Below, in pieces: positions 20,551 to 63,586 of a stretch of 64,000 nucleotides of DNA. Within the stretch, counting starts at the first letter, position 1. Each line of letters begins with the position of its first letter. The notes beneath the pieces were generated by a model. That model was given only the letters and a program-made list of their open reading frames with translations, did no database searches and was not told the origin of the DNA. Position numbers and translations under genes: made by a program. Origin of the DNA: Halomarina litorea (lineage in GTDB: Archaea; Halobacteriota; Halobacteria; Halobacteriales; Haloarculaceae). The DNA lies in the NCBI RefSeq assembly GCF_024227715.1, contig NZ_CP100448.1, positions 2,811,655 to 2,875,654 of the forward strand. Reading direction: 5' to 3'.

Positions 20551-20703
20551 ATGGGCAAGAAGTCGAAGGCCAAGAAAAAGCGGCTCGCGAAGCTCGAGCG
20601 GCAGAACAGCCGCGTCCCCGCGTGGGTCATCCTCAAGACCGACCGCGAGACGATGCAGAACCCCAAGCGACGCCACTGGCGGCGTAACGACACGGACGAA
20701 TGA
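20551..20703 (+). CDS. rpl39e: Ribosomal protein L39e (eL39)
   Basis: A 50-residue, very basic protein, [18 protein letters not shown] then [10 protein letters not shown] and a C-terminal [14 protein letters not shown]. This is the complete L39e, a small protein lining the ribosomal exit tunnel. Its stop overlaps the rpl31e start by four bases. Together with L31e and aIF6 it forms a conserved archaeal gene group. Confidence 0.97.
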
Positions 20704-51196: not shown

Positions 51197-53461
51197 GTGA
51201 CCGACCCGGCGTACATGCGGTTTTTCCCGTACGGCACGCCCTACGACCACCAGCGCGAGGCGATGGACGACATCGCGGGTGCGCTCGACGACGGGCGCGA
51301 CGTGCTGTTCGAGGGGGCCTGCGGGACGGGAAAGACGCTCGCGGCGCTCGTTCCGGCGCTCGAACACGCCCGCCAGACGGACAAGACGGTCGTCATCACG
51401 ACCAACGTCCACCAGCAGACGCGCCAGTTCATCGAGGAGGCCCGCGCCATCACCCGACAGGAGCCGATTCGAGCCGTCGTCTTCCGCGGGAAGGGGTCGA
51501 TGTGCCACATCGACGTGGGCTACGAGGAGTGTCAGGCCCTCCGAGACACCACCCGCGAACTCGTCGAAGTCGAACAGGACAAGGGAACGCTCGGCGACCG
51601 GGAGGACGACTTACTCGAAGATGCCCAACGCGGCGAAGAGGGGGCCGCCGAGGGCCGGCAGGCCGTCATGGACGAACTCGCGGCGCTCGAAGACGAACTG
51701 GAGGACCTGCGCGAGGCCGCCACCTGCGACTACTACTACAACAACCTCGTCGGCGACACCGACGCGTTCTACCAGTGGCTGTTCGACGACGTGCGGACGC
51801 CCGACGAGATATACGAACACGCCCACGACGAGGGCTTCTGCGGGTACGAGTTGCTGAAGGAGGGGATGGAGGGCGTCGACCTCGTCGTCTGCAACTACCA
51901 CCACCTGCTCGACCCGATGATCCGCGAGCAGTTCTTCCGGTGGCTGGGCCGCGACCCCGAGGACGTGGTCGTCGTCTTAGACGAGGCTCACAACGTCGAG
52001 GACGCGGCCCGCGACCACGCCACCCGGACGCTCGCCGAGCCCACCCTCGACGGGGCGCTGGGCGAACTCGACGAGGCGAACGACCCGCGTGTCGGGCCGA
52101 CGCGAAACGTCGTCTCGGCGTTCCGCGAAGCGCTCGCGACCACCTACGACGACGCCCTCGCCTTCGGCGAACGCGGACAGGTCGGCGAGGACTGGTACGA
52201 CCTCTCCATCGTCAACGACCGGGGCCGCGACGACCTGACGCTCGCCTTCCTCGACGCCTACACCGGGAAGGGCATCCACGAGGACTTAGACCAGGCGCTC
52301 GAACTCGGCGGCGCGCTGGACCGCCAGTACCACGAGGCGTACAAGGAAGGCGAGACGCGAACGAGAAAGGAGTGTCGCGTCCTGCAGGCCGCGACGTTCG
52401 TCGACGACTGGTTGCGCGACTCCGACGAGGAGGGCCAGTACCCCGTCGTGAGCGTGCGCCGGCCGGGGCGCGGGATGAGCGGGGGCGACGACGCCGACCC
52501 GGACGGAGCGTCCAGTGGGGCAGACGACGAGGACCGGATGTACGGCCGCGCGGAGCTGTACACCTGCATCCCGCGTCGGGTCACCGAACCCCTGTTCGGC
52601 GAACTCCACGCGAGCGTCCTGATGAGCGCGACGCTCCGCCCGTTCGACGTGCTCGGGGACGTCCTCGGCGTCGCGGGCGACGGCGAGGATGGGGGCGGAG
52701 ACACCGGCCCGGTGACGATGGCCTACGGCGAGCAGTTCCCCGAGGAGCGCCGTCGCACCTACGCCGTGGACCTCCCGGCGCTGTTCGCCAGCAAGCGCGA
52801 CGACCCGAGCGTCCAGCGACAGGTCGCGGAGGCCCTCTCGGACGCCGTCGGGTTCACGCCGGGCAACACGCTCGTCTTCTTCCCCAGCTATCGGGAGGCC
52901 GAGCGCTACCACGAGATGCTCTCGCGGTCCGTCGACGCCACCCTCTACCTCGACAGGCCCGGCCAGCGCGCAGAGGACCTCCGCGAGCGGTTCACGTCGG
53001 GCGAGAACGGCGCGCTGTTCACCTCGCTGTGGGGCACGCTCGCCGAGGGGGTGAGCTTCGACGACGACGACGCCCGGACCGTCGTGGTCGTCGGCGTTCC
53101 CTACCCACATCTGGACGACCGGATGGACGCCGTACAGGACGCCTACGCGACGGCGTTCGCCGACGCCGAGAGCGAGGACCCCGGCTGGGAGTACGCCGTC
53201 GAAGTGCCGACGGTCAGAAAGACCCGGCAGGCCCTCGGGCGGGTCGTCCGCTCGCCGGAGGACTTCGGCGTGCGCGTCCTCCTCGACGAACGGTACACGA
53301 AGCGCGCGCGCCGCGAGATGCGCAAGTACAGCGTCACGGACGCGTTCCCGGTCGGGGAGCGCGTCGAACACATCGACATCGACCCGCCGAAGCTGAAGTT
53401 CGCGATGCTCAACTTCTACTCGGACATGAACGCGTGGACGGGCGCGCCGCCGGTGCCCTGA
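51197..53461 (+). CDS. XPD/Rad3-type ATP-dependent DNA helicase
   Basis: Protein of 754 residues from a GTG. Helicase domain 1 contains Walker A EGACGTGKTLAAL near residue 39-51. The Fe-S domain has four Cys (MCHIDVGYEECQAL, AATCDYYYN, EGFCGYEL), and VVVLDEAHNVEDAARDHA is the DEAH box. Helicase domain 2 has LMSATLRPFDVLG, FFPSYREAERY, TLAEGVSFDDD and QALGRVVRSPEDFG. It is a 5'-3' helicase of the XPD family, probably in repair. A disordered Asp/Gly-rich insert lies at about 430-450. It is longer than classical archaeal XPD (~550-650 aa), so it is nearer to the haloarchaeal Rad3-like group. Confidence 0.92.
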   Translation: MTDPAYMRFFPYGTPYDHQREAMDDIAGALDDGRDVLFEGACGTGKTLAALVPALEHARQTDKTVVITTNVHQQTRQFIEEARAITRQEPIRAVVFRGKGSMCHIDVGYEECQALRDTTRELVEVEQDKGTLGDREDDLLEDAQRGEEGAAEGRQAVMDELAALEDELEDLREAATCDYYYNNLVGDTDAFYQWLFDDVRTPDEIYEHAHDEGFCGYELLKEGMEGVDLVVCNYHHLLDPMIREQFFRWLGRDPEDVVVVLDEAHNVEDAARDHATRTLAEPTLDGALGELDEANDPRVGPTRNVVSAFREALATTYDDALAFGERGQVGEDWYDLSIVNDRGRDDLTLAFLDAYTGKGIHEDLDQALELGGALDRQYHEAYKEGETRTRKECRVLQAATFVDDWLRDSDEEGQYPVVSVRRPGRGMSGGDDADPDGASSGADDEDRMYGRAELYTCIPRRVTEPLFGELHASVLMSATLRPFDVLGDVLGVAGDGEDGGGDTGPVTMAYGEQFPEERRRTYAVDLPALFASKRDDPSVQRQVAEALSDAVGFTPGNTLVFFPSYREAERYHEMLSRSVDATLYLDRPGQRAEDLRERFTSGENGALFTSLWGTLAEGVSFDDDDARTVVVVGVPYPHLDDRMDAVQDAYATAFADAESEDPGWEYAVEVPTVRKTRQALGRVVRSPEDFGVRVLLDERYTKRARREMRKYSVTDAFPVGERVEHIDIDPPKLKFAMLNFYSDMNAWTGAPPVP

Positions 53462-53481
53462 GGCGGGGTCCCGGGAGCGGC

Positions 53482-53970
53482 TCACCCGACTGGTATCGCT
53501 GTGACGGGTTCCCGGTAGCGTGCCGACCAGAGGTGGAGCGAGGAGACGGTCCACTCGACGGGGTCGACCCCTCGTTCGCAGAACGCCCTCACCGCGTCCG
53601 GGTCGCCGCCGCGCCCGAGGGTCACGTGCGGGACGTAGTCTTCGCCCTCGATGTCGGGGACGGGGTCGAACGAGGTGCAGAGTCGGTCGTGGAGGGCGCG
53701 GAGGCCGGGACTCTCGACGGCGAGGTAGGTGACGGGGCCGGTGGCGGCGGCGAACGTCCCCAGTCCGGCGATTCGGGCCGGACACGGCGAGGCGTCTCCT
53801 AGAACCGCCCGCGTTCGGTCGGCGAGTGCGCGGTGATCGCCGTCCCCGACACGCTTGACGACGAGGGTGGGCCGTTCGCGTGGGCGGACGCCCGCCGGCA
53901 GGTCCTCGCGGAGCCTCGCCGCGAGCGCTCGGACCGACTCGGGAACCGGCGCGTTCAGGCTGTACGACAT
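53482..53970 (-). CDS. 2H phosphoesterase-like protein (2'-5' RNA ligase family) with one catalytic His missing
   Basis: Protein of 162 residues. YSLNAPVPESVRALAARLRED is the family start. The second catalytic motif is intact (YVPHVTLGRGGD). The first, where HxTL or HTLV is expected, reads RERPTLVVKRVGDGD, so the His appears to be replaced by Pro. LAVESPGLRALHDRLC is the conserved helix. Loss of one His should abolish 2H chemistry, suggesting a binding role or changed activity. The ATG at 53968-53970 is a sensible start; the frame continues upstream. It is convergent with the helicase. Confidence 0.7.
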   Translation of the reverse strand: MSYSLNAPVPESVRALAARLREDLPAGVRPRERPTLVVKRVGDGDHRALADRTRAVLGDASPCPARIAGLGTFAAATGPVTYLAVESPGLRALHDRLCTSFDPVPDIEGEDYVPHVTLGRGGDPDAVRAFCERGVDPVEWTVSSLHLWSARYREPVTAIPVG

Positions 53971-54158
53971 CTTCGGTGACGAGCCGTGGCCGCTCGAACC
54001 GGACATTCGACGTGTATCGGTCGAACTGACCGCCAGTTCGTCGTACTCTTTTCGGTACGGCTGTTCACACACCCACCACACGCCGAGAGAACTAAAACCC
54101 CTCCAACGGTCGTGAGTGGCGCTAACACGCCGACGTAAGCGTTGCCAACCGAGACAGG

Positions 54159-54164
54159 TTTATA
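54159..54164 (+). promoter_or_regulatory. TATA box of the argG leader transcript
   Basis: TTTATA within CAGGTTTATACTC. It is the best TATA element in the gap before argG. A start about 26 bases downstream falls at 54188, two bases before the ATG of the arginine-rich leader ORF, and about 180 bases before argG itself. A weaker GATACA lies nearer argG (54345-54350). Confidence 0.75.
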
Positions 54165-54189
54165 CTCGTCGGGCAGTACCGATTCAGTA

Positions 54190-54270
54190 ATGACACGGGC
54201 CCACTCCACCGACGGCGCGTCGAGCGGTGGGTACCGCCTCGTTCTCCTGCGACCGCGACCGGGCCGTTAG
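54190..54270 (+). CDS. Candidate arginine-rich leader peptide upstream of argG (26 aa)
   Basis: ATG at 54190, TAG at 54268-54270. Five of 26 codons are Arg (positions 3, 16, 21, 23, 26; CGG, CGC, CGA, CGA, CGT), and three fall in the last six (ending RPRPGR). The ORF starts where the upstream TATA box predicts transcription to begin, so it would be translated as a leaderless message. The 3' end, CGGGCCGTTAG, is identical in sequence and frame to the end of a second Arg-rich ORF at 57233-57283. GGGCC-GTTA-GGCCC forms a hairpin over its stop codon. It is inferred to sense charged tRNA-Arg and to affect argG; there is no direct evidence of translation. Confidence 0.6.
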   Translation: MTRAHSTDGASSGGYRLVLLRPRPGR

Positions 54271-54274
54271 GCCC
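54261..54274 (+). promoter_or_regulatory. Hairpin covering the stop codon of the argG leader ORF
   Basis: GGGCC-GTTA-GGCCC, five base pairs with a four-base loop; the loop and the first base of the second arm include the TAG. A ribosome that reaches the stop would disrupt it, one stalled earlier at the CGA codons would not. Confidence 0.5.
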
Positions 54275-54321
54275 AACTCTACTCACTTCCCAGTCGGTTT
54301 CCGCATCGCTCTCGACGACCA

Positions 54322-54340
54322 CGCGCCGCGTTCCGGCGCG
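54322..54340 (+). promoter_or_regulatory. Perfect GC hairpin just upstream of argG
   Basis: CGCGCCG-CGTTC-CGGCGCG, seven G-C pairs, 28 bases before the argG ATG. It may act in transcript folding or termination control; there is no T tract after it. Confidence 0.55.
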
Positions 54341-54368
54341 CCCTGATACACCAGCACACACCACACCA

Positions 54369-55634
54369 ATGACGACGAACACGGAGAAAGTCGCGCTCGC
54401 CTTCTCGGGCGGCCTCGACACGACAGTCTGCGTCCCGCTACTGAAAGAGGAGTACGGCTACGACGAGGTCATCGGCGTCACCGTCGACGTCGGCCAACCG
54501 GCCGAGGAGTTCGACGAGGCCGAGGAGACGGCCGAGGCACTCGGTCTCGACCACTACGTTGTCGACGCGCAAGCCGAGTTCGCGGACCTCTGTTTCGACT
54601 CGGTCCGCGCGAACGCCGACTACCAGGGCTACCCGCTCGGGACCGCCCTCGCGCGCCCCGTCATCGCCGAGGCCATCCTCGACGTCGCACAGGAACAGGG
54701 CTGTACCGCCATCGCCCACGGCTGTACGGGCAAGGGCAACGACCAGCTCAGGTTCGAGGCCGTCTGGCGCGCCTCCGACCTCGCGGTCATCGCGCCGGTG
54801 CGCGAACTCGGCCTCACCCGCGAGTGGGAGAGCGAGTACGCCGCCGAGCGTGACCTGCCCGTCGAGGGCGGCAACGAGGGCGCCTGGAGCATCGACACGA
54901 ACCTCTGGAGTCGCTCCGTCGAGGGCGACGACCTGGAGGACCCCGGCTACGTGCCCCCCGAGGACATCTACGAGTGGACCGACACGCCCGGGAACGCGGA
55001 GACGGAACTCGTCGAAATCGAGTTCGAGGACGGCTACCCGGTCGCCGTCGACGGGGAGGAGATGGATCCAGTCGCCCTCATCGACCACCTGAACGAGGTG
55101 GCCGGGAAACACGGGGTCGGTCGTACGGACATGATGGAAGACCGCATGCTCGGCCTGAAGGTCCGCGAGAACTACGAACACCCCGCCGCGACGGCCCTGC
55201 TGAACGCACACGAGGCGCTCGAAGGCCTCGTCCTCACGCAGGAGGAGCGCTCGTTCAAGAAGCAGGTCGACCAGCAGTGGTCTGAGAAGGCCTACCAGGG
55301 TCTCGTGGACGCGCCGCTGGTCGACGCCCTCGACGGGTTCATCGCGAGCACGCAGGAGCGCGTGACCGGGACGGTGACCCTGAAACTGGAGGGGGGGCAG
55401 TGTCGCCCGGTGGGCCGCGAGAGCGACTTCGCGGTGTACTCCGAGTCGGCCGCCTCGTTCAACACGGAGACCGTCGACGGCATCGAACAGGCCGACGCGA
55501 CGGGCGTAGCGAAGTACCACGGCTTCCAGGGCCGCCTCGCGAAGCAGGTCATCGGGGGGCAGGAGGCACCCGCCGCGGTGACCGACGGCGGTGCCAGCCA
55601 CCTCACGGACGACGGGACCGGAGACGAGGAGTAA
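54369..55634 (+). CDS. argG: Argininosuccinate synthase
   Basis: Protein of 421 residues. It joins citrulline and aspartate using ATP, the next-to-last step of arginine synthesis. The PP-loop AFSGGLDTTV (S13-T19) is clear, followed by EVIGVTVDVGQPAEEF, GNDQLRFE (aspartate and citrulline site) and WSIDTNLWSRSVEGD. The C-terminal region is acidic. The start MTTNTEKVALAFSGGLD matches the family. It is the first gene of the arg cluster; two candidate leader elements lie before it. argH follows after two bases, so both are in one unit. Confidence 0.97.
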   Translation: MTTNTEKVALAFSGGLDTTVCVPLLKEEYGYDEVIGVTVDVGQPAEEFDEAEETAEALGLDHYVVDAQAEFADLCFDSVRANADYQGYPLGTALARPVIAEAILDVAQEQGCTAIAHGCTGKGNDQLRFEAVWRASDLAVIAPVRELGLTREWESEYAAERDLPVEGGNEGAWSIDTNLWSRSVEGDDLEDPGYVPPEDIYEWTDTPGNAETELVEIEFEDGYPVAVDGEEMDPVALIDHLNEVAGKHGVGRTDMMEDRMLGLKVRENYEHPAATALLNAHEALEGLVLTQEERSFKKQVDQQWSEKAYQGLVDAPLVDALDGFIASTQERVTGTVTLKLEGGQCRPVGRESDFAVYSESAASFNTETVDGIEQADATGVAKYHGFQGRLAKQVIGGQEAPAAVTDGGASHLTDDGTGDEE

Positions 55635-55636
55635 TC

Positions 55637-57127
55637 ATGGTCGGCGACGGCGAGGGGGGAAGCTCCTCCGGGAGCCGGACGGCGTCCGGCGACAGCGACG
55701 TGGTGCGCAGGGAGCGCTTCAGCGGCGGCCCCGCCCGCGAGTTCCTCTCGTCGCTCGCCGCCGACGAGCGCATCTTCGACGCGGACCTCGCGGTGGACCG
55801 CGCGCACGTCGTGATGCTCGCCGAACGGGGAATCGTCGCGAACGACGAGGCGGGCGACATCCTCACCGCCCTCGACATCGTGGAGGTCGCCGGCCACGAC
55901 GACCTGCCGAACGGCGAGGACGTCCACGCGGCCATCGAGACGGCCGTCATCGAGGAGATCGGCCCCGTCGGCGGGAAGATGCACACCGCCCGCTCGCGCA
56001 ACGACGAGGTGGCGACGTGCATCCGCTATCGCCTCCGCGAGGACCTGCTGGATGCCGTGGAGGCGACCGTGACGCTCCGCGAGGCGCTGCTCGACGTGGC
56101 CGCGGAGCACACCGAGACGGTGATGCCCGGCTTCACCCACCTCCAGCCCGCCCAGCCGACGACCGTGGCCCACTGGTGCTGTTCGTACGCGCAGGCGCTC
56201 GCCCGCGACACGGCCCGCCTGCTCGACGCGTACGAGCGGGTCAATCGGTCGCCGCTGGGCGCGGCGGCGTTCGCGGGCACCACCTTCGACGTGGACCGCG
56301 AACGCGTCGCCGCCCTACTCGGGTTCGACGGCGTGCTGGAGAACGCGATGGACGCGAGCGCGACGCGCGACTTCCTCGTGGAGTCGGTGAGCGCGCTGGC
56401 GACGCTCTCGACGACCCTCTCCGGTCTCGCCGAGGACCTCGTCGTCTTCGCGAACAAGGGGTACGTCGCCCTCTCTGACGACTACTCCTCTACCTCCTCC
56501 ATCATGCCCCAGAAGGTGAACCCGGACACCCTCGAACTCGTGCGGGCGACGGCGGGCGACGCGAGCGCGGGGCTCAACGGCCTGCTGACGACGCTGAAGG
56601 GTCTGCCCCGTGCGTACAACCGCGACCTGCAGCGCGCGACGCCCCACGCGTGGGAGGCGGTCGACGCCGTGACCCACGCGACGGACGTCGCCGCGGGCGC
56701 GGTGGCGACGGCCGACTGGCCCGAAGAAGTACTGGAGGACGCCGCGAGCGAGGGCTTCTCGACGGCGACGGGGGTGGCGGACCTGCTGGCGGCGGGCGGC
56801 CTGCCGTTCCGGACCGCACACGAAATCGTCGCCAAAGCCTCTGAGAGCGGCGCGGACTACGACGCCGTCGCGGCGGCGGCCGAGGAGGTACTGGACGACC
56901 CCCTCTCGACGTACGCCTCCCGCGAGGCGGTGGAGGCGGCGCTGGACCCCGTCGAGAACGTCGCGTCGCGCGACTCGCTGGGTGGTCCCGCCCCCGAGGC
57001 GGTGGCCGCGCACGTCGAACGCGCCGGGACGGAACTGGCCGAGGACGCGGCGGCCCTCGAAGCGCGCCGCGAGGCGCTGGCGACGGCGAACGCGGCGCTC
57101 CGCGAGGAGGTGAACGGGTATGCGTGA
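55637..57127 (+). CDS. argH: Argininosuccinate lyase
   Basis: Protein of 496 residues. It splits argininosuccinate into arginine and fumarate. MHTARSRNDEVATCIRYRLRED, TVMPGFTHLQPAQPTTVAHW and the signature SSTSSIMPQKVNPDTLELV are all present; the first Ser of the mobile loop (SSIMP) is the usual catalytic residue. The N-terminus is extended by ~25 Ser/Gly/Asp-rich residues. It starts two bases after argG. The last gene of the argG-argH pair; the gap of 230 bases after it contains the second leader-like ORF. Confidence 0.97.
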   Translation: MVGDGEGGSSSGSRTASGDSDVVRRERFSGGPAREFLSSLAADERIFDADLAVDRAHVVMLAERGIVANDEAGDILTALDIVEVAGHDDLPNGEDVHAAIETAVIEEIGPVGGKMHTARSRNDEVATCIRYRLREDLLDAVEATVTLREALLDVAAEHTETVMPGFTHLQPAQPTTVAHWCCSYAQALARDTARLLDAYERVNRSPLGAAAFAGTTFDVDRERVAALLGFDGVLENAMDASATRDFLVESVSALATLSTTLSGLAEDLVVFANKGYVALSDDYSSTSSIMPQKVNPDTLELVRATAGDASAGLNGLLTTLKGLPRAYNRDLQRATPHAWEAVDAVTHATDVAAGAVATADWPEEVLEDAASEGFSTATGVADLLAAGGLPFRTAHEIVAKASESGADYDAVAAAAEEVLDDPLSTYASREAVEAALDPVENVASRDSLGGPAPEAVAAHVERAGTELAEDAAALEARREALATANAALREEVNGYA

Positions 57128-57232
57128 GTCGACGGTCGTGACCGCGCGCACCCCCGCCGCCCCTGCCGTCCGACGACCGGTCCCGGGTGCCCGACCGCCG
57201 CCGGCTTCGGCCGGGACTGAACTACCACACCG

Positions 57233-57283
57233 ATGATACACCGAAATCGAATCCGACGTTCGCGCCGTTCTGCGGGCCGTTAG
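57233..57283 (+). CDS. Candidate arginine-rich leader peptide upstream of lysW (16 aa)
   Basis: ATG at 57233, TAG at 57281-57283; the peptide is MIHRNRIRRSRRSAGR. Seven of 16 codons are Arg (CGA x3, CGT x3, CGC x1). Six of these seven are A- or T-ending codons, against the strong GC3 preference of the genome. It ends with CGGGCCGTTAG, the same 11 bases and frame as the argG leader ORF. A T-rich tract (57298-57310) begins 15 bases after the stop. No TATA box is seen just upstream, so it may be reached by transcripts from argH. Inferred role: arginine-dependent attenuation of the lysW-argF genes. Confidence 0.6.
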   Translation: MIHRNRIRRSRRSAGR

Positions 57284-57297
57284 CTCTGCTTCGGTCG

Positions 57298-57310
57298 TTA
57301 ATTTTCTTTG
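57298..57310 (+). promoter_or_regulatory. T-rich tract after the lysW leader ORF: terminator or TATA element
   Basis: TTAATTTTCTTTG, in a very GC-rich region. Archaeal RNA polymerase terminates at oligo-U tracts, so it could be the termination site of an attenuator. It could equally be a TATA element for lysW, with a start near 57328. A second element, GTTAAG (57325-57330), is about 30 bases from the lysW ATG. Confidence 0.5.
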
Positions 57311-57357
57311 ACACAATCGCTGGTGTTAAGTGGCTATGGTGGTCAGTACCGAGTACA

Positions 57358-57522
57358 ATGGTAGACTGCCCCGAGTGTGGGGGAAGCGTGACCCTGCACG
57401 ACGACGCTGAGACCGGCGAGATCATCGACTGCGGGACGTGTGGAGCCGAACTCGAGGTCATCGGGACGGACCCCGTCGAACTCGAGACGGCACCCGAACT
57501 CGAAGAGGACTGGGGCGAATAG
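57358..57522 (+). CDS. lysW: LysW, amino-group carrier protein
   Basis: A 54-residue acidic protein. Two CxxC pairs (C4/C7 in DCPECGG and C25/C28 in DCGTCGAE) bind zinc, and the C-terminus ends EDWGE. The last Glu is the side chain that LysX links to the substrate amino group; the rest of the pathway acts on the carrier-bound intermediate. Found with lysX and argC, argB, argD and argE in the same order as in archaea that make lysine and/or arginine this way. Here argF, argG and argH show that arginine is the product. Confidence 0.96.
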   Translation: MVDCPECGGSVTLHDDAETGEIIDCGTCGAELEVIGTDPVELETAPELEEDWGE

Positions 57523-57523
57523 A

Positions 57524-58387
57524 ATGCGTGTCGGCGTGCTGTACTCCCGGATTCGGCGGGACGAGAAGCTCCTGCTGAACGAACTCCGGTCGCGCGACCA
57601 CGAGGTGGCGAAACTCGACGTCCGCAAACTGCGGTTCGCGCTGGACGAACCGCCAGCCGAACTCGCGGAGTGCGACGTCGTCCTCGACCGCTGTCTCGCC
57701 ACCAGCCGGAGCCTCTACGCGAGTCAGTTCGTCGACAGCTACGGCGTCCCGGTCGTGAACGGCCCGGAGACGGCCGAGGTATGCGCGGACAAGGCCAAGA
57801 ACAGCCTCGCGCTCTCGAACGCGGGCGTCCCCACCCCCCGGACGGAGGTGGCGTTCACGAAGGAGACGGCGATGGAGATCATCGAGGACTTCGGTTACCC
57901 CTGCGTCCTCAAGCCCGTCGTGGGGTCGTGGGGTCGCCTGATGGCGAAGATCGACTCGCGGTCGGCGGCCGAGGCCATCCTCGAACACAAGGCGACACTC
58001 GGCCACTACGAGCACAAGGTGTTCTACGTCCAGGAGTTCGTCGAGAAACCCGGCCGCGACATCCGCGTCGTGGCGACGGACGGCGAACCCGTGGCCGCGA
58101 TGACGCGCACCTCGGACCACTGGCTGACGAACGCCGCGAAGGGCGCGACGGCCGAACCGTTCGAACTGGACGACGAGGCACTCGACCTCGTCGAACGCGC
58201 CAGCGAGGCCGTCGGCGGGGGCCTGCTGGGCGTGGACCTGATGGAGACCGGCGAGTCCGGCTATACGGTCCACGAGGTCAACCACACGGTGGAGTTCAAG
58301 GCCCTCTCGGACGCGACGGACGTGGACGTGGCCGCCCGCGTGGTCGACTGGCTGGAGACGAAGGTGCCCGCGGAGGTCAGCGCATGA
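57524..58387 (+). CDS. lysX: LysX/ArgX, LysW-glutamate (or aminoadipate) ligase
   Basis: Protein of 287 residues in the ATP-grasp fold. KNSLALSNAGVPTPRTEVAFTKE, YPCVLKPVVGSWGRLMAKI and FYVQEFVEKPGRDIRVVA hold the ATP contacts, and the metal-binding end is GVDLMETG...VHEVNHTVEFK. It ligates the amino group of glutamate to the terminal Glu of LysW, so the ArgX name would be more exact if only glutamate is used. The ATG lies one base after the lysW stop codon. It overlaps argC by four bases. Confidence 0.94.
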   Translation: MRVGVLYSRIRRDEKLLLNELRSRDHEVAKLDVRKLRFALDEPPAELAECDVVLDRCLATSRSLYASQFVDSYGVPVVNGPETAEVCADKAKNSLALSNAGVPTPRTEVAFTKETAMEIIEDFGYPCVLKPVVGSWGRLMAKIDSRSAAEAILEHKATLGHYEHKVFYVQEFVEKPGRDIRVVATDGEPVAAMTRTSDHWLTNAAKGATAEPFELDDEALDLVERASEAVGGGLLGVDLMETGESGYTVHEVNHTVEFKALSDATDVDVAARVVDWLETKVPAEVSA

Positions 58388-59427
58388 GTACGGAGACGGC
58401 CACCGCCGCCGTCGTCGGCGCGAGCGGGTTCACCGGCGGCGAACTCCTCCGCCTGCTCTCGGCTCACCCCGAGTTCGAGATCGCACAGGCGACGAGTCGC
58501 TCCTACACGAACAAGACCGTCGGCTACTCGCATCCCAACCTGCGGGGTCTCGACCTGCGCTTTACCGACCCCGAGGACCTGGAGAGCGTGGACGTGCTGT
58601 TCGCCGCGACGCCCCACGGCGTCTCGATGGACCGCATCGACGCGTTCCGCGACGCCGCCGACACCGTCGTGGACCTCTCGGCGGACTTCCGGCTGGACGA
58701 CGAGGCGGCCTACGACGCCTACTACGACGGACACTCGCGTCCCGAACTCCTCGCGGAGTCGGAGTACGCGCTCCCCGAACTCAACCGGGAGAACCTGCGC
58801 GGTGCGGACCTCATCGCCTCGGGGGGGTGTAACGCCACGGCGACCCTGCTGGGTCTCCACCCGCTGAAGGAGGCGGGCATCCTCACGGGCGACGAACGCG
58901 CCGTCGTGGACGTGAAGGTCGGCTCGTCGGAGGGCGGCGCGAGTGGGGGAAAGGCCTCCAGCCACCCCGAGCGCTCGGGCGTCGTCCGGCCCTACGCGCC
59001 GACGGGCCACCGCCACGAGGCGGAGATAGAGCAGTTCTTCGGGAGCGTCGCGTTCACCGTCCACGCCGTGGAGATGGTGCGCGGGGCCTCGGCGACCTGT
59101 CACCTGTTCCCCGACGAACCCGTCACGAAGGGCGACCTGTGGGGGGCCTATCGCGAGGCCTACGAGGACGAACCGTTCGTCCGCCTCGTCGCGGGCGGGG
59201 GCGGCGTCTATCGCTACCCCGAACCCAAGGCGGTGGCGGGGACGAACTACGCGGAGGTCGGGTTCGAACTCGACCCCGCGAACGGACGAATCGTGGTCTT
59301 CTCGGCCATCGACAACATGATGAAGGGGTCGGCGGGCCAGGCGGTCCACGCCGCCAACATCGCCCTCGGCTTCGAGGAGACGGCCGGACTGGAGTTTCAG
59401 GGGCTCCACCCCGTGGGGACACCCTGA
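58384..59427 (+). CDS. argC: LysW-gamma-glutamyl-phosphate reductase (ArgC type)
   Basis: Protein of 347 residues. GASGFTGGELLRLLSAHPEFE is the NADP-binding start and ASGGCNATATLLGLHPL holds the active-site Cys. KVGSSEGGASGGKASSHPERS and GHRHEAEIEQFF are family segments; the active-site His is in the latter. It reduces the carrier-bound acyl phosphate to the semialdehyde with NADPH. The short ORF 59442-59561 lies between it and argB. Confidence 0.96.
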   Translation: MSTETATAAVVGASGFTGGELLRLLSAHPEFEIAQATSRSYTNKTVGYSHPNLRGLDLRFTDPEDLESVDVLFAATPHGVSMDRIDAFRDAADTVVDLSADFRLDDEAAYDAYYDGHSRPELLAESEYALPELNRENLRGADLIASGGCNATATLLGLHPLKEAGILTGDERAVVDVKVGSSEGGASGGKASSHPERSGVVRPYAPTGHRHEAEIEQFFGSVAFTVHAVEMVRGASATCHLFPDEPVTKGDLWGAYREAYEDEPFVRLVAGGGGVYRYPEPKAVAGTNYAEVGFELDPANGRIVVFSAIDNMMKGSAGQAVHAANIALGFEETAGLEFQGLHPVGTP

Positions 59428-59441
59428 GAGAGGTAGTTTTC

Positions 59442-59561
59442 ATGATACGCGAAACGGACACGACGCTGGATGGACGGGCGATGGAACGGGCGACGACAGC
59501 ACAGACGTCCCCGCGTCCGGTCCCGCCCCGCGGTGCGGCCTCCACGGAGGTGTCACTGTGA
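59442..59561 (+). CDS. Short ORF between argC and argB (39 aa), uncertain
   Basis: ATG at 59442; TGA at 59559-59561 overlaps the GTG start of argB by four bases. The peptide begins MIRETDTTLDGRAMERATT and is polar, rich in Thr, Ala, Pro and Arg (5 of 39). A purine-rich GAGAGGTAG lies 7-16 bases upstream and could be a ribosome-binding site. It may serve to couple argB translation to argC rather than to make a functional protein. Confidence 0.4.
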   Translation: MIRETDTTLDGRAMERATTAQTSPRPVPPRGAASTEVSL

Positions 59562-60406
59562 CGGTCGTGGTCAAAATCGGCGGCGCTCGCGCCGTCGACC
59601 CGAAGGGCGCGCTCGCGGACGTGGCCTCGCTCGTCGCGTCGGGCGAGGAGGTAGTCGTCGTCCACGGCGGGTCGACGGCGGTGGACGATACGCTCGACGC
59701 CCTCGGCGAGGACCCCGAATACGTCGAGACGCCCTCCGGCGTCGTCGGGCGGTTCACCGACGAGCGCACCATGGAGGTGTTCTCGATGGTGCTGCCGGGC
59801 AAACTCAACACCGACCTCGTCGTCGGCCTGCAGAACGCGGGCGTGGAGGCCGTCGGGCTCTCGGGCGTCGACGGCGGCCTGCTGAAAGGCCCCCGGAAGT
59901 CGGCCGTGAGAGTCCTCGAAGACGGGAAGAAGAAGATTCGCCGAGGGGACCACTCCGGGCGGGCGGAAGCGGTCAACGCCGACCTGCTGGAGACGCTGTT
60001 GGGAGGGGGCTACACGCCCGTCGTCACCGTCCCCATGCTCGCACAGGACGGGGACGACTGGCTGGCGGTCAACTCCGACGCCGACCGGGCGGCCGCCGCG
60101 GTGGCGGGCGCACTCGGCGCGGACCTCGTCCTCCTGACGGACGTTCCCGGCGTGCTCGCGGACCTCGACGACCCCGAGTCGGTCATCGACCGGGTCGCGA
60201 GTCCGGAGGAGTACGACGCGCTCACGGACGCCGCCGAGGGGTTCATGACCCGGAAGGTGATGGCCGCGACGGAGGCGCTGGAGGGCGGCGCGACGAGCGC
60301 CGTCGTCGCCAGCGCGAACGCCGACGCGCCGATCACGGCGGCGCTGGACGGGCAGGGGACGACGATGCTCCCCGACGCGCTGGCGGAGACGGAGGTGGCC
60401 GAATGA
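59558..60406 (+). CDS. argB: LysW-glutamate/aminoadipate kinase (ArgB type)
   Basis: Protein of 282 residues from a GTG that overlaps the preceding short ORF. VVKIGGARAVDP and VVVVHGGSTAVDDTLDALG are the ATP-binding motifs of the acetylglutamate kinase fold; GLSGVDGGLLKGPRKSAVRVL and GKKKIRRGDHSGRAEAVNADLL are typical of the LysW-dependent (LysZ/ArgB) branch. VNSDADRAAAAVAGALGADLVLLTDVPGV is conserved in the AAK family. It phosphorylates the side-chain carboxylate of carrier-bound glutamate. Overlaps argD by four bases. Confidence 0.95.
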   Translation: MTVVVKIGGARAVDPKGALADVASLVASGEEVVVVHGGSTAVDDTLDALGEDPEYVETPSGVVGRFTDERTMEVFSMVLPGKLNTDLVVGLQNAGVEAVGLSGVDGGLLKGPRKSAVRVLEDGKKKIRRGDHSGRAEAVNADLLETLLGGGYTPVVTVPMLAQDGDDWLAVNSDADRAAAAVAGALGADLVLLTDVPGVLADLDDPESVIDRVASPEEYDALTDAAEGFMTRKVMAATEALEGGATSAVVASANADAPITAALDGQGTTMLPDALAETEVAE

Positions 60407-61527
60407 CGAACTTCGTATTCAACGAGAAGCCCGTCCGCATCGCCCGCGGCGAGGGGCCGTATCTCTACAGCGAGGGCGGCGACGAGTTCCTCGACTTCGG
60501 GGCCTCCTACGCGGTGACGCCGACGGGCCACTGCCACCCCGACGTGGTCGCGGCGACGCAGGAGCAACTGGAGGAGTTGCTGTACGTGCAGGCGTCGTAC
60601 CCCGTCGGCGTCCGCGACGAGTTGTTCGAGAAGCTCTCGACGCTCGCGCCCGGCGACGCCGACAACGTCTGGCTCTGTAACTCCGGGACGGAGGCCAACG
60701 AGGCCGCCCTGAAGTTCGCCCGGAGCGCCACCGGACGCTCGAAGATCGTGGCGACGACCCGCGGGTTCCACGGCCGGACGATGGGCGCGCTGGCGACGAC
60801 GTGGAAGGACAAGTACAAGAAGCCCTTCGAACCGCTGGCCGGCGGCGTCGAGTTCGTCGAGTACGGCGACGGCGAGGCGATGGCCGAGGCCGTCGACGAC
60901 GAGACGGCGGCGGTCATCCTCGAACCCCTGCAAGGCGAGGGCGGCATCAACCCCGCGTCCACCGAGTACCTCGAAGCCGTGCGGGAGGCCTGTGACGACC
61001 ACGGGGCGGCGATGATACTCGACGAGATACAGACCGGCATCGGCCGCACCGGAGACCTCTGGGCCTGTGAGGGCCACGGCGTGACGCCCGACGTCCTCAC
61101 CACGGCGAAGGGCATCGCCAGCGGCCTCCCGATGGGCGCGACGCTCTGTCGGGACTGGGTCGCCGAGGGCGCCGGCCCCCACGGGTCGACGTTCTCGGGC
61201 GGCCCCGTCGTCTGTGCGGCCGCGAACGCCACCCTCGACGTCGTCGTCGAGGAGGACCTGCCGGGGAACGCGGCGAGCATGGGCGACTACCTGCAGACCG
61301 AACTGGACGCCGCCATCGGCGACGAGGTGCGCGATATCCGCGGGCAGGGCCTCATGCTCGGCGTCGAGGTGAAACGCGGGGCGAACCGCCTACTGCCGAA
61401 GTTGGCGATGAACCACGGGATACTGGCGCTCCCCGCGGGGCGAACGGTCCTCAGACTGCTCCCGCCGCTTGTCGTCGAGCAGGAGCACTGTGACAGCGTC
61501 GTGGACGCGCTGTCGGAGGTCGTGTGA
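60403..61527 (+). CDS. argD: LysW-linked acetylornithine/aminoadipate semialdehyde aminotransferase (ArgD type)
   Basis: Protein of 374 residues, fold-type I PLP aminotransferase. Substrate/cofactor segments are LCNSGTEANEAALKFAR, TTRGFHGRTMGALATT, DEIQTGIGRTGDLWACE and the PLP Lys in VLTTAKGIASGLPMGA. It uses glutamate to aminate the LysW-linked semialdehyde, giving LysW-ornithine. It overlaps argB by four bases and argE by one. Confidence 0.95.
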   Translation: MTNFVFNEKPVRIARGEGPYLYSEGGDEFLDFGASYAVTPTGHCHPDVVAATQEQLEELLYVQASYPVGVRDELFEKLSTLAPGDADNVWLCNSGTEANEAALKFARSATGRSKIVATTRGFHGRTMGALATTWKDKYKKPFEPLAGGVEFVEYGDGEAMAEAVDDETAAVILEPLQGEGGINPASTEYLEAVREACDDHGAAMILDEIQTGIGRTGDLWACEGHGVTPDVLTTAKGIASGLPMGATLCRDWVAEGAGPHGSTFSGGPVVCAAANATLDVVVEEDLPGNAASMGDYLQTELDAAIGDEVRDIRGQGLMLGVEVKRGANRLLPKLAMNHGILALPAGRTVLRLLPPLVVEQEHCDSVVDALSEVV

Positions 61528-62669
61528 TGAGCGAGTCACCCTGTACGACCGGTGAGGGCGCCGGCTCGCACGTCTCGGACGCGGCGGCCCGCGAACTGCT
61601 GGAGGAGGTCGTCGCCACGCCCTCGGTCACCGGAGAGGAACGCGCGTGCGCCGAACTGCTGGTCTCGTTCTTCGAGTCCCACGGCCGCGAGGCGTGGCTG
61701 GACGACGTGGGCAACGTCCGCGCGCCCGCCGACGACGCAGTGCTCCTGACCTCGCACATCGACACCGTCCCCGGGGACATCCCCGTGCGCGTAGAAGACG
61801 GCGGGTCGGCGGAGACGACCCGAGACGGAGGCGGTGAAGCCGCCGAGGCGAACGAGGACGGCCCCGAGCTCTGGGGGAGAGGGAGCGTCGACGCGAAGGG
61901 TCCGCTGGTGGCGATGGCCGTCGCCGCGGTCAGCACGGGCGTCTCGTTCGTCGGCGTCGTCGGCGAGGAAGTCGACTCGCGAGGGGCGCACCACCTCGTC
62001 GAGGACCGGGCCGCCCCGGAGGCCGTCGTCAACGGCGAACCCTCCGGATGGGACGGCATCACCCTCGGCTACCGGGGGCTGCTGGCGGGCACGTACGTCG
62101 CCACGAGTGCCTCCGGGCACACCTCCCGCCCCGAGAACAACGCCATCCAGGACGGGATGGACTGGTGGAACGCGGTGACCGCCGCGTTCGCGGACGACGG
62201 CGACGAGTGGACGCCAGTCTTCGAGCGCGTCACCCCGAAACCCATCGACGTGCAGGGCGGGACGAGCGACGACGGCCTCTCGGTGGAGGCGACGATGGAG
62301 GTGCAGTTCCGCGTTCCCCCCTCGCTGACCGTCGACGAGGTGCGCGAGGTCGCCGACGGGGAACTGAACGGCGGGACCGTCCGCTGGCACGACTCGGTGC
62401 CCCCCGTCATGCAGAGTCCCCGGACCGAGGTGGCCCGCGCGTTCCGCGTCGCCATCCGCGAGGCGGGCGGCGACCCCCGCCTCCTGCGCAAGACGGGCAC
62501 CGCGGACATGAACCTCTACGCGAAGGCGTGGGACTGCCCGATGGTGACGTACGGGCCGGGCGACTCGGACCTCGACCACGCGCCCGACGAGCACCTCTCG
62601 CTCGCGGCGTTCGACCGCTCGGTCGCCGTCCTCGAATCGGTCGCGCGCACGCTGCAGGGTGAGTCCTGA
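61527..62669 (+). CDS. argE: LysW-ornithine/lysine hydrolase (ArgE/LysK), M20 family
   Basis: Protein of 380 residues. The metal ligands are in LTSHIDTVPGD, WGRGSVDAKGPLVA and VVGEEVDSRGAHHL, and RKTGTADMNLYAKAWDCPMVTYGPGDSDLDHAPDEH holds the last ones. The central part has an acidic insertion (~residues 88-112), perhaps a salt adaptation. It releases ornithine from LysW. The gene begins one base before the argD stop ends; an in-frame GTG one codon earlier is another possible start. Confidence 0.94.
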   Translation: MSESPCTTGEGAGSHVSDAAARELLEEVVATPSVTGEERACAELLVSFFESHGREAWLDDVGNVRAPADDAVLLTSHIDTVPGDIPVRVEDGGSAETTRDGGGEAAEANEDGPELWGRGSVDAKGPLVAMAVAAVSTGVSFVGVVGEEVDSRGAHHLVEDRAAPEAVVNGEPSGWDGITLGYRGLLAGTYVATSASGHTSRPENNAIQDGMDWWNAVTAAFADDGDEWTPVFERVTPKPIDVQGGTSDDGLSVEATMEVQFRVPPSLTVDEVREVADGELNGGTVRWHDSVPPVMQSPRTEVARAFRVAIREAGGDPRLLRKTGTADMNLYAKAWDCPMVTYGPGDSDLDHAPDEHLSLAAFDRSVAVLESVARTLQGES

Positions 62670-63586
62670 TGCGCGGGGACGGTACCCCGCGTCACCTCGT
62701 CGACGTCGACGACCTCTCGCGGGAGGAACTGCTGGCGGTCCTCGACCGCGCGGCGGCGCTGAAGGGGTACGTCGAACGGGGCGACCCGCATCGCTACCTC
62801 GACGGGCAGACCCTCGGGATGGTCTTCGAGAAGCCCTCGACGCGCACCCGCGTCTCCTTCGAGACAGGGATGACACAACTGGGCGGGCACGCTATCTTCC
62901 TCGGGCCGGACGACATCGGCCTCGGGGGGCGCGAACCGGTGAAGGACATCGCGCGCACCCTCTCTCAGTACGTCGACTGCGTCATGGCGCGCGTGTTCGA
63001 CCACGACGACGTGGTGGAACTCGCGGAGTACGCGACGGTGCCCGTCGTCAACGGCCTGACCGACGACGCCCACCCCTGCCAGACGCTCGCCGACCTCCTC
63101 ACGGTCCGCGAGACGGTGGGTCTCGACGCCTCCGTCGCGTGGGTCGGCGACGGCAACAACGTCGCCCAGTCGTTCGTGCTGGGGGCGGCCCTCGCGGGCG
63201 TCGACCTCACCGTCGCCGCGCCCGACGGCTACGGCATCGACCCGGCGGTGCTCGACCGGGCCGCCGAACTCGGGACGGCCCCGGAGACGACCGACGACCC
63301 GGCGGCGGCCGTCGCGGACGCCGACGTGGTGTACACCGACGTCTGGGTCAGCATGGGTCAGGAGGGCGAACGCGAGGAGAAACTCGCCGTCTTCGAGGAC
63401 GGCGGCTTCCAAGTGAACGACGCCCTGCTCTCGGAGACGGACGCACAGGTCATGCACTGCCTGCCCGCTCACCGGGGCGAGGAGATAACCGACGCCGTCG
63501 TCGAGAGCGACCGGGCGCTGGTCTGGCAGCAGGCGGAGAACCGTCTGCACGCCCAGAAGGCGCTGTTGACCTGGCTGCTGGACTGA
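62669..63586 (+). CDS. argF: Ornithine carbamoyltransferase
   Basis: Protein of 305 residues. The carbamoyl-phosphate loop is KPSTRTRVSFETGMTQLGG, the ornithine motif is HPCQTLADLLTV and the third is VMHCLPAHRGEEI. It makes citrulline from ornithine and carbamoyl phosphate. It is the last gene of the LysW-arginine unit, and overlaps argE by one base. Its product is used by ArgG, encoded at the start of the cluster. Confidence 0.97.
   Translation: MRGDGTPRHLVDVDDLSREELLAVLDRAAALKGYVERGDPHRYLDGQTLGMVFEKPSTRTRVSFETGMTQLGGHAIFLGPDDIGLGGREPVKDIARTLSQYVDCVMARVFDHDDVVELAEYATVPVVNGLTDDAHPCQTLADLLTVRETVGLDASVAWVGDGNNVAQSFVLGAALAGVDLTVAAPDGYGIDPAVLDRAAELGTAPETTDDPAAAVADADVVYTDVWVSMGQEGEREEKLAVFEDGGFQVNDALLSETDAQVMHCLPAHRGEEITDAVVESDRALVWQQAENRLHAQKALLTWLLD

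Follow-up and report, generated by a model that had tools for sequence, protein, structure and literature searches.

The region at 54159-54292, upstream of the argGHWXCBDEF operon, is probably a cis-acting attenuator built on an arginine leader peptide; we infer the translation of this peptide, the termination of transcription behind it, and its response to arginine. The arginine leader-peptide element is conserved across Halobacteria and has a sister element at ilvB; as judged from these sequences, it is most likely an attenuator controlled by the ribosome. The open frame, the promoter spacing, the codon content, the compensatory hairpins, the tract behind them, and the parallel at ilvB are all seen directly in the DNA. 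The main point of the locus is the content of a mini-ORF, namely, Arg codons placed against a hairpin.

A preliminary description of this DNA had proposed that the mini-ORF is translated without an untranslated leader, from a start predicted by a TATA box. Rereading the letters of the window (the whole 64-kb stretch of DNA that was analyzed) confirmed the coordinates: the box TTTATA occupies 54159-54164, the mini-ORF ATG lies at 54190, and the argG ATG is at 54369, 179 nt farther downstream, where about 180 had been given. The features of the locus, including two hairpins designated A and T, are listed in Table 1. The first T of the box is 31 nt from the A of the leader ATG, and 98 nt separate the mini-ORF stop from the argG ATG. 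No TATA box adjoins argG in the window; the best TATA-like hexamer near this gene, CTGATA at 26 nt upstream, is weak. argG opens a complete arginine operon of the LysW type, argG-H-lysW/argW-X-C-B-D-E-F, which ends at 63586. Within the leader, a further Arg codon (CGT) occupies 54265-54267, and the stop codon overlaps the loop and 3' arm of hairpin T. Hairpin A can also be drawn in another register, in which TCCACCG pairs with CGGTGGG. A search of 53000-56500 against Rfam with cmscan gave three weak matches, all scoring far under the gathering thresholds and all outside 54159-54369, and a single-sequence fold of the window leader was no better than shuffles (z scores of -0.21 and +0.25).

Table 1. 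Features of the argG leader and its operon in the window
Feature	Position	Strand	Remark
TATA box TTTATA, leader promoter	54159..54164	+	spacing 31, the mode of 91 loci
Predicted transcription start	54186..54190	+	predicted from box spacing
Leader ORF MTRAHSTDGASSGGYRLVLLRPRPGR, 26 codons, stop TAG 54268-54270	54190..54270	+	conserved in 103/109 loci
Hairpin A within leader ORF, arms 54199-54205/54226-54232	54199..54232	+	geometry kept, arms co-vary
Control codons CGA CCG CGA (Arg-Pro-Arg), directly 5' of hairpin T	54250..54258	+	
Hairpin T: GGGCC 54261-54265, loop GTTA, GGCCC 54270-54274	54261..54274	+	
C/U/A tract lacking G; candidate site of termination or processing	54275..54292	+	
Extra GC hairpin CGCGCCG/CGGCGCG before argG	54322..54340	+	position and form lineage-specific
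argG, argininosuccinate synthase	54369..55634	+	
argH, lysW/argW, argX (LysX-like), argC, argB, argD, argE/lysK, argF	55637..63586	+	rest of arginine operon

We examined how far this arrangement extends among argG loci. The sample consisted of named haloarchaeal loci (the best 80 of 324) plus 36 loci from further relatives; after the window was added and duplicates were dropped, the set held 109 distinct upstream regions. An ORF was scored when it began with ATG, spanned 12 to 60 codons, had a TATA-like box 18 to 36 nt upstream, and carried at least three Arg among its last 10 residues. This test, whose criteria were fixed only after the pattern had been seen, was passed by 91 of the 109 regions, compared with a mean of 0.5 and a maximum of 3 of 109 in 40 dinucleotide shuffles. 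When GTG starts, weaker boxes, and long ORFs were allowed, the element was found in 103 of the 109 regions, with 20 to 87 codons; this count includes one locus (L056) that was anchored at a wrong, distant stop and has its Arg run and palindrome at -156. Loci L047, L054, and L063 keep the Arg run and the palindrome, with the stop lost or moved. The element is absent from three loci with deep-branching argG (L117, L118, and L119). In Natronorubrum and Salinadaptatus (L047, L054, L056, and L063), the leader stop is gone and the ORF continues past the palindrome.

An anchored leader is present in 31 of the 32 named genera, with Natronorubrum entering this count only through the wrongly anchored L056; Salinadaptatus has the stop-less form. 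The genera carrying the leader include Haloferax, where it was seen in species other than the laboratory model Haloferax volcanii, whose argG we take to be HVO_0049. Among 25 argG loci of other Halobacteriota (L211 to L235; 25 of 36 matches), no Arg run ending against a hairpin was found; four non-haloarchaeal argG loci (L214, L223, L226, and L228) matched the ORF test weakly and have a TATA-like box, but do not resemble the element. A search of 29 genomes with the element pattern gave four matches, all at argG. On both strands of the 64-kb window, the ORF test picked out two ORFs only, the argG leader and one at 20551. The latter, the only other ORF of the window to pass the Arg-tail test, is a 50-codon, Lys/Arg-rich frame on the + strand with a TATA box; from its resemblance, we take it to be probably ribosomal protein L39e.

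The N-terminal half of the leader peptide is highly variable, and the conserved part is the run of Arg codons tied to the hairpin. In L013, where palindromic repeats have been inserted, the frame stays open for 87 codons and ends in RRRRRPGR followed by the stop. Short palindromic repeat units also stand in frame in L017; the leader ORFs of these two loci have 87 and 57 codons, respectively, and both retain the Arg run and the hairpin. Since inserts keep the frame, and since positions 1 and 2 of the Arg codons stay CG while position 3 varies, these features argue that the leader reading frame is under selection as such.

Promoter spacing is equally regular. In the 91 loci with a clear box, the distance from box to ATG is 25 to 34 nt, with a mode of 31, and 60 of the 91 fall at 31 to 32; the corresponding distance to the argG start is 30 to 35 in the 39 loci where argG has a strong box of its own. 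The leader TATA spacing thus resembles that of leaderless promoters, and transcription would start at or near the ATG. With box spacing, frame, and Arg-rich end all kept across haloarchaea, comparison of the loci supports the earlier proposal that the mini-ORF is a leaderless first cistron. A second, leaderless promoter serves argG itself in 47 of 100 loci, with a TATA about 30 nt upstream of the gene; the window belongs to the leader class, which lacks it. A mapped start just 5' of argG would therefore not by itself be a counter-proof in two-promoter loci, because argG has its own promoter there. The main text of a study of haloarchaeal transcripts (PMC4983044) defines a leaderless transcript as one starting 0 to 5 nt from the start codon, and it gives 72% leaderless transcripts and 111 Haloferax volcanii genes with both leaderless and leadered starts; the same two-promoter layout is found in about half of the argG loci. 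Neither argG, nor HVO_0049, nor the word stem attenuat appears in that main text.

Two further features lie between the leader and argG. Two-promoter loci (Haloferax, Natrinema, Halobaculum, and others; e.g., L028, L020, and L058) contain conserved AT-rich blocks 3' of the leader hairpin and 5' of the second TATA, about -77/-59 from argG, which are possibly regulator sites of the proximal promoter. In Haloarculaceae leaders, the last approximately 80 nt before argG hold two crossing stems, CCGCC(C)..GGGCGG and GUCGGGU..ACCCGAC, seen in L033, L055, L065, L066, L096, L105, L107, and L110, with one compensatory change in L096. These stems may form an H-type pseudoknot or, alternatively, two alternative hairpins.

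The Arg codons are tightly linked to hairpin T. At least three of them lie within the 27 nt before this hairpin in 101 of 103 loci, and across the 103 loci the last Arg codon is at most 3 nt from the 5' arm, a gap whose lower bound was set by the method so that only the upper bound is informative. CGA accounts for 334 of the 503 Arg codons among the last 14 leader codons, compared with 27 of 1364 in 79 argG genes, and it is present in 102 of 103 leaders. The Pro-Gly pair that follows the Arg run is set by the stem sequence CCGGGCC, and loci with another stem have other residues there (RRRPAL, RPRRRAL, and RRRPGSP). As this pair is dictated by the stem and lost with it, what is conserved is the codons and the hairpin rather than the peptide.

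Hairpin T has a short stem of about 5 to 6 bp, of which 18 distinct sequences occur. The inner 4 bp come in 11 distinct versions, and all of these pair, compared with a mean of 15% and a maximum of 55% when the arms were permuted; these pairs were counted by script, as a MAFFT alignment (31 of 91 distinct segments) misaligned the arms. The stem reads GGGCC/GGCCC in most loci, GGCCC/GGGCC in Haloferax, GGGGTC/GACCCC or GGGGC/GCCCC in Halorussus, and GACCCC/GGGGTC in L116. The stop codon is usually in or at the loop; it sits just behind the hairpin in Halomarina oriensis and Natronomonas, and the hairpin rather than the stop is therefore the fixed part. Hairpin A lies within about the first 50 nt of the ORF, at about the same position in different genera, with arms that are wholly different: CTCGCAGC/GCTGCGAG in Haloferax, CCGTCGG/CCGACGG in Natrinema, and GACTCGCGGCTC/GAGCCGCGAGTC in Halorussus. 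Its mean stem score is 21.0, compared with 14.8 for codon shuffles (the highest of 50 set means was 15.6), and it scores above 95% of its own shuffles in 48 of 102 loci.

The tract at +5 to +21 is composed of 2.9% G, 46.5% C, 29% T, and 21.5% A; at most one G in 17 nt is found in 90 of 103 loci, compared with 5.8% of random 17-mers. No U run follows hairpin T, the longest T run within 30 nt being 1 to 2 in 80 of 103 loci. Inspection of the leader-class alignments revealed no general 2:3 antiterminator pairing between hairpins A and T, and almost no consensus structure emerged when RNAalifold was applied to the full set of 53 leader-class loci. In this class, 74 to 184 nt separate the mini-ORF stop from argG, and the hairpins in this interval are lineage-specific.

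A leader with a parallel layout precedes ilvB, which we take to be the acetolactate synthase gene, with Ile and Val as the cognate amino acids. The ilvB leaders stand at promoter spacing, end in IIVGA, IIVGV, or RIVGAL, and are followed by a G-poor tract; a hairpin surrounds the stop, formed in most of them by GTAGGGG before it and CCCCTAC or a near match after it. Regions were taken from 20 of the 26 genomes with a match, and the leader was found by motif in all 20 (L291 to L310; the source genome is L296), 18 of them with a TATA-like box. Without the motif, 18 of the 20 pass a cognate test (at least three I/L/V) and 16 pass a hairpin-tract test. ATT makes up 21 of the 33 Ile codons in these leaders, compared with 66 of 1105 in argG genes; this figure is independent of the GTAGGGG-type motif used to find the leaders, whereas for GTA, the other rare codon in them, that motif itself brings in one copy per locus (20 of 25), a circularity.

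Control gene families gave a different result. A cognate-rich leader was found in none of 190 loci of trpC, trpD, hisG, argS, pheA, thrC, and dapA, and the hairpin-tract signature was found in one of them, in a scan of 500 nt that may have missed distant leaders, as matches in thrC and other families may begin inside the protein. In six control loci out of 136 (L127, L141, L204, L206, L254, and L287), the position taken as the match start did not lie in an open frame. A loose signature scan, which recovers 82 of 109 argG leaders and 16 of 20 ilvB leaders, marked seven places in the window and two 400-kb stretches of the source genome, compared with two under a Markov null. The clear places are argG and ilvB; the other five (L316, L320, L327 on the minus strand, L343, and L344) look unrelated. 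The case for a ribosome that senses charged tRNA rests most strongly on the use of one layout at two operons, each with its own cognate and rare codons.

This arrangement suggests the following mechanism. Transcription would begin on the mini-ORF ATG or no more than a few bases from it, and a ribosome would load on the leaderless 5' end and trail RNA polymerase through hairpin A to the cluster of rare CGA codons. With enough Arg-tRNA, the ribosome would pass these codons, end at the stop in hairpin T, and leave; hairpin T could then form and, together with the G-poor, pyrimidine-rich tract, halt transcription before argG, or the transcript might be cut there. When arginine is short, the ribosome would wait on CGA with its downstream edge hiding the 5' arm of hairpin T, and the polymerase, with hairpin T blocked, would continue into the operon. 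A ribosome extends about 12 nt or more past its A site; as the last Arg codon is at most 3 nt away, a waiting ribosome would cover this arm. The response would thus have the right sign: with arginine low, no hairpin forms and the operon is on. One weakness is that hairpin T would likewise be hidden by a ribosome resting at the stop, and release would therefore have to be quick relative to the polymerase. The second promoter beside argG, found in about half of the loci, would bypass the switch, a point against an attenuator. According to a Haloferax study (PMC7237163), 59% of transcripts in a reporter were stopped by a sequence able to form a hairpin, and 503 of the 1,543 ends that were mapped have a hairpin upstream, the main intergenic terminator signal being a T stretch. 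As this stretch is missing at the leader, factor-dependent termination by aCPSF1/FttA, or cleavage, is possible.

Several other explanations may account for parts of this pattern. The same leader peptide and arginine sensing could act on a different output, either translation of argG (through re-initiation or masking) or cleavage and stability of the leader RNA. The absent U-run terminator and the 74- to 184-nt interval with lineage-specific hairpins, including the possible pseudoknot just before argG in Haloarculaceae, would suit such an output. Yet the element is kept in the 47 of 100 loci with a downstream leaderless argG promoter, where translational coupling could not work because the argG mRNA made from it is leaderless, and with or without that promoter the codons are immediately followed by the hairpin and tract; we therefore consider this output rather unlikely. 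Alternatively, the peptide itself might bind arginine in the ribosome tunnel and cause arrest, in the manner of the fungal arginine attenuator peptide. Many of the peptides do end in R-P-G-R or R-P-G-L, but this Pro-Gly follows from the CCGGGCC of the hairpin and is replaced with other stems. Other residues show no strong conservation, CGA is heavily preferred among the codons, and the ilvB counterpart has a quite different peptide, all of which makes a nascent-peptide sensor very improbable.

In two-promoter species, the unit resembles a short transcript complete in itself; it could encode a small functional Arg-rich protein or a trans-acting short RNA, with hairpin T as its own terminator. 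This is very improbable given that the length (20 to 87 codons) and the N-terminal half vary while only the codon run tied to the hairpin is kept, that all pattern matches in the 29 genomes were argG leaders, and that the ilvB parallel carries cognate Ile/Val codons. A palindrome beside a repeat is also operator-like, and its place 3' of the promoter would fit a roadblock, so that a regulator might bind the CGA run and palindrome as duplex DNA, with the frame as a by-product. However, the palindrome changes in sequence between genera and stays palindromic, codon positions 1 and 2 stay CG while the third varies, and the frame is open from a promoter-spaced ATG across inserts; we regard a DNA operator as extremely improbable. 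Short ORFs are abundant in GC-rich haloarchaeal DNA, but 91 of 109 regions against 0.5 of 109 in shuffles, with cognate leaders in 0 of 190 controls, leave a chance ORF in a GC-rich leader with a negligible probability.

Ribosome-controlled attenuation thus remains the preferred reading, and it invites comparison with known systems. Bacterial attenuators (trpL, hisL, and the ilv/leu leaders) combine a leader ORF, rare cognate codons, a 1:2 stem, a GC hairpin, and a U run; arginine is an unusual amino acid for bacterial leader-peptide attenuators. Like them, the haloarchaeal argG leader has a short ORF before the operon for biosynthesis of the cognate amino acid, clustered cognate codons that are rare ones (as also at ilvB), and a GC hairpin after these codons, and hairpin A in the 5' half resembles the 1:2 stem. 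In contrast, it would start leaderless, with no Shine-Dalgarno leader, and be transcribed by an archaeal polymerase; its stop codon is usually in the hairpin; a C-rich tract replaces the U run; and no general 2:3 antiterminator was found in it, which direct masking by the ribosome would not need. While the element would work like a bacterial attenuator, we do not class it as a member of that group, because the U-run terminator is missing and both termination and the amino-acid response are deduced from the layout. The fungal arginine attenuator peptide (the CPA1/arg-2 uORF) senses free arginine by its own sequence. It shares with the argG leader an arginine-related uORF before an arginine gene; unlike it, the argG leader peptides differ outside the Arg run, keeping Arg codons but no conserved arrest peptide. 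Early termination by aCPSF1/FttA in archaea is likewise a control point, but, as presented in the available parts of PMC8448881, it involves no sensing by ribosomes or of amino acids, unlike what is proposed for the argG leader.

According to the same parts of PMC8448881, no example of attenuation or antitermination was known in archaea as of 2021, and archaea were without demonstrated attenuators as of 2014 (PMC4247193). We found no description of the element in the full-text, mostly non-subscription literature on haloarchaeal leader peptides, attenuation, and argG leaders, so that prior notice is possible; nor is it described in the available portions of PMC12482152, PMC3124441, PMC10450193, PMC11456600, and PMC8632094. 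On balance, the evidence favors the view that Halobacteria have ribosome-mediated attenuation, with leaderless leader peptides whose rare cognate codons abut a stop-holding hairpin before at least the argG and ilvB operons. This would be the first case in Archaea and simpler than its bacterial counterparts, as the stalled ribosome would mask the hairpin directly.

If this is true, attenuation of the bacterial style would extend to a new domain in a simpler form, and it would imply coupling between a ribosome that starts on a leaderless 5' end and an archaeal polymerase. Leader peptides would then be in use in another domain, whether through convergence or from ancient origin, and more such switches should be findable from sequence alone. 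The leader is common to some 30 named haloarchaeal genera, Haloferax included, which makes the question testable in a genetic model.
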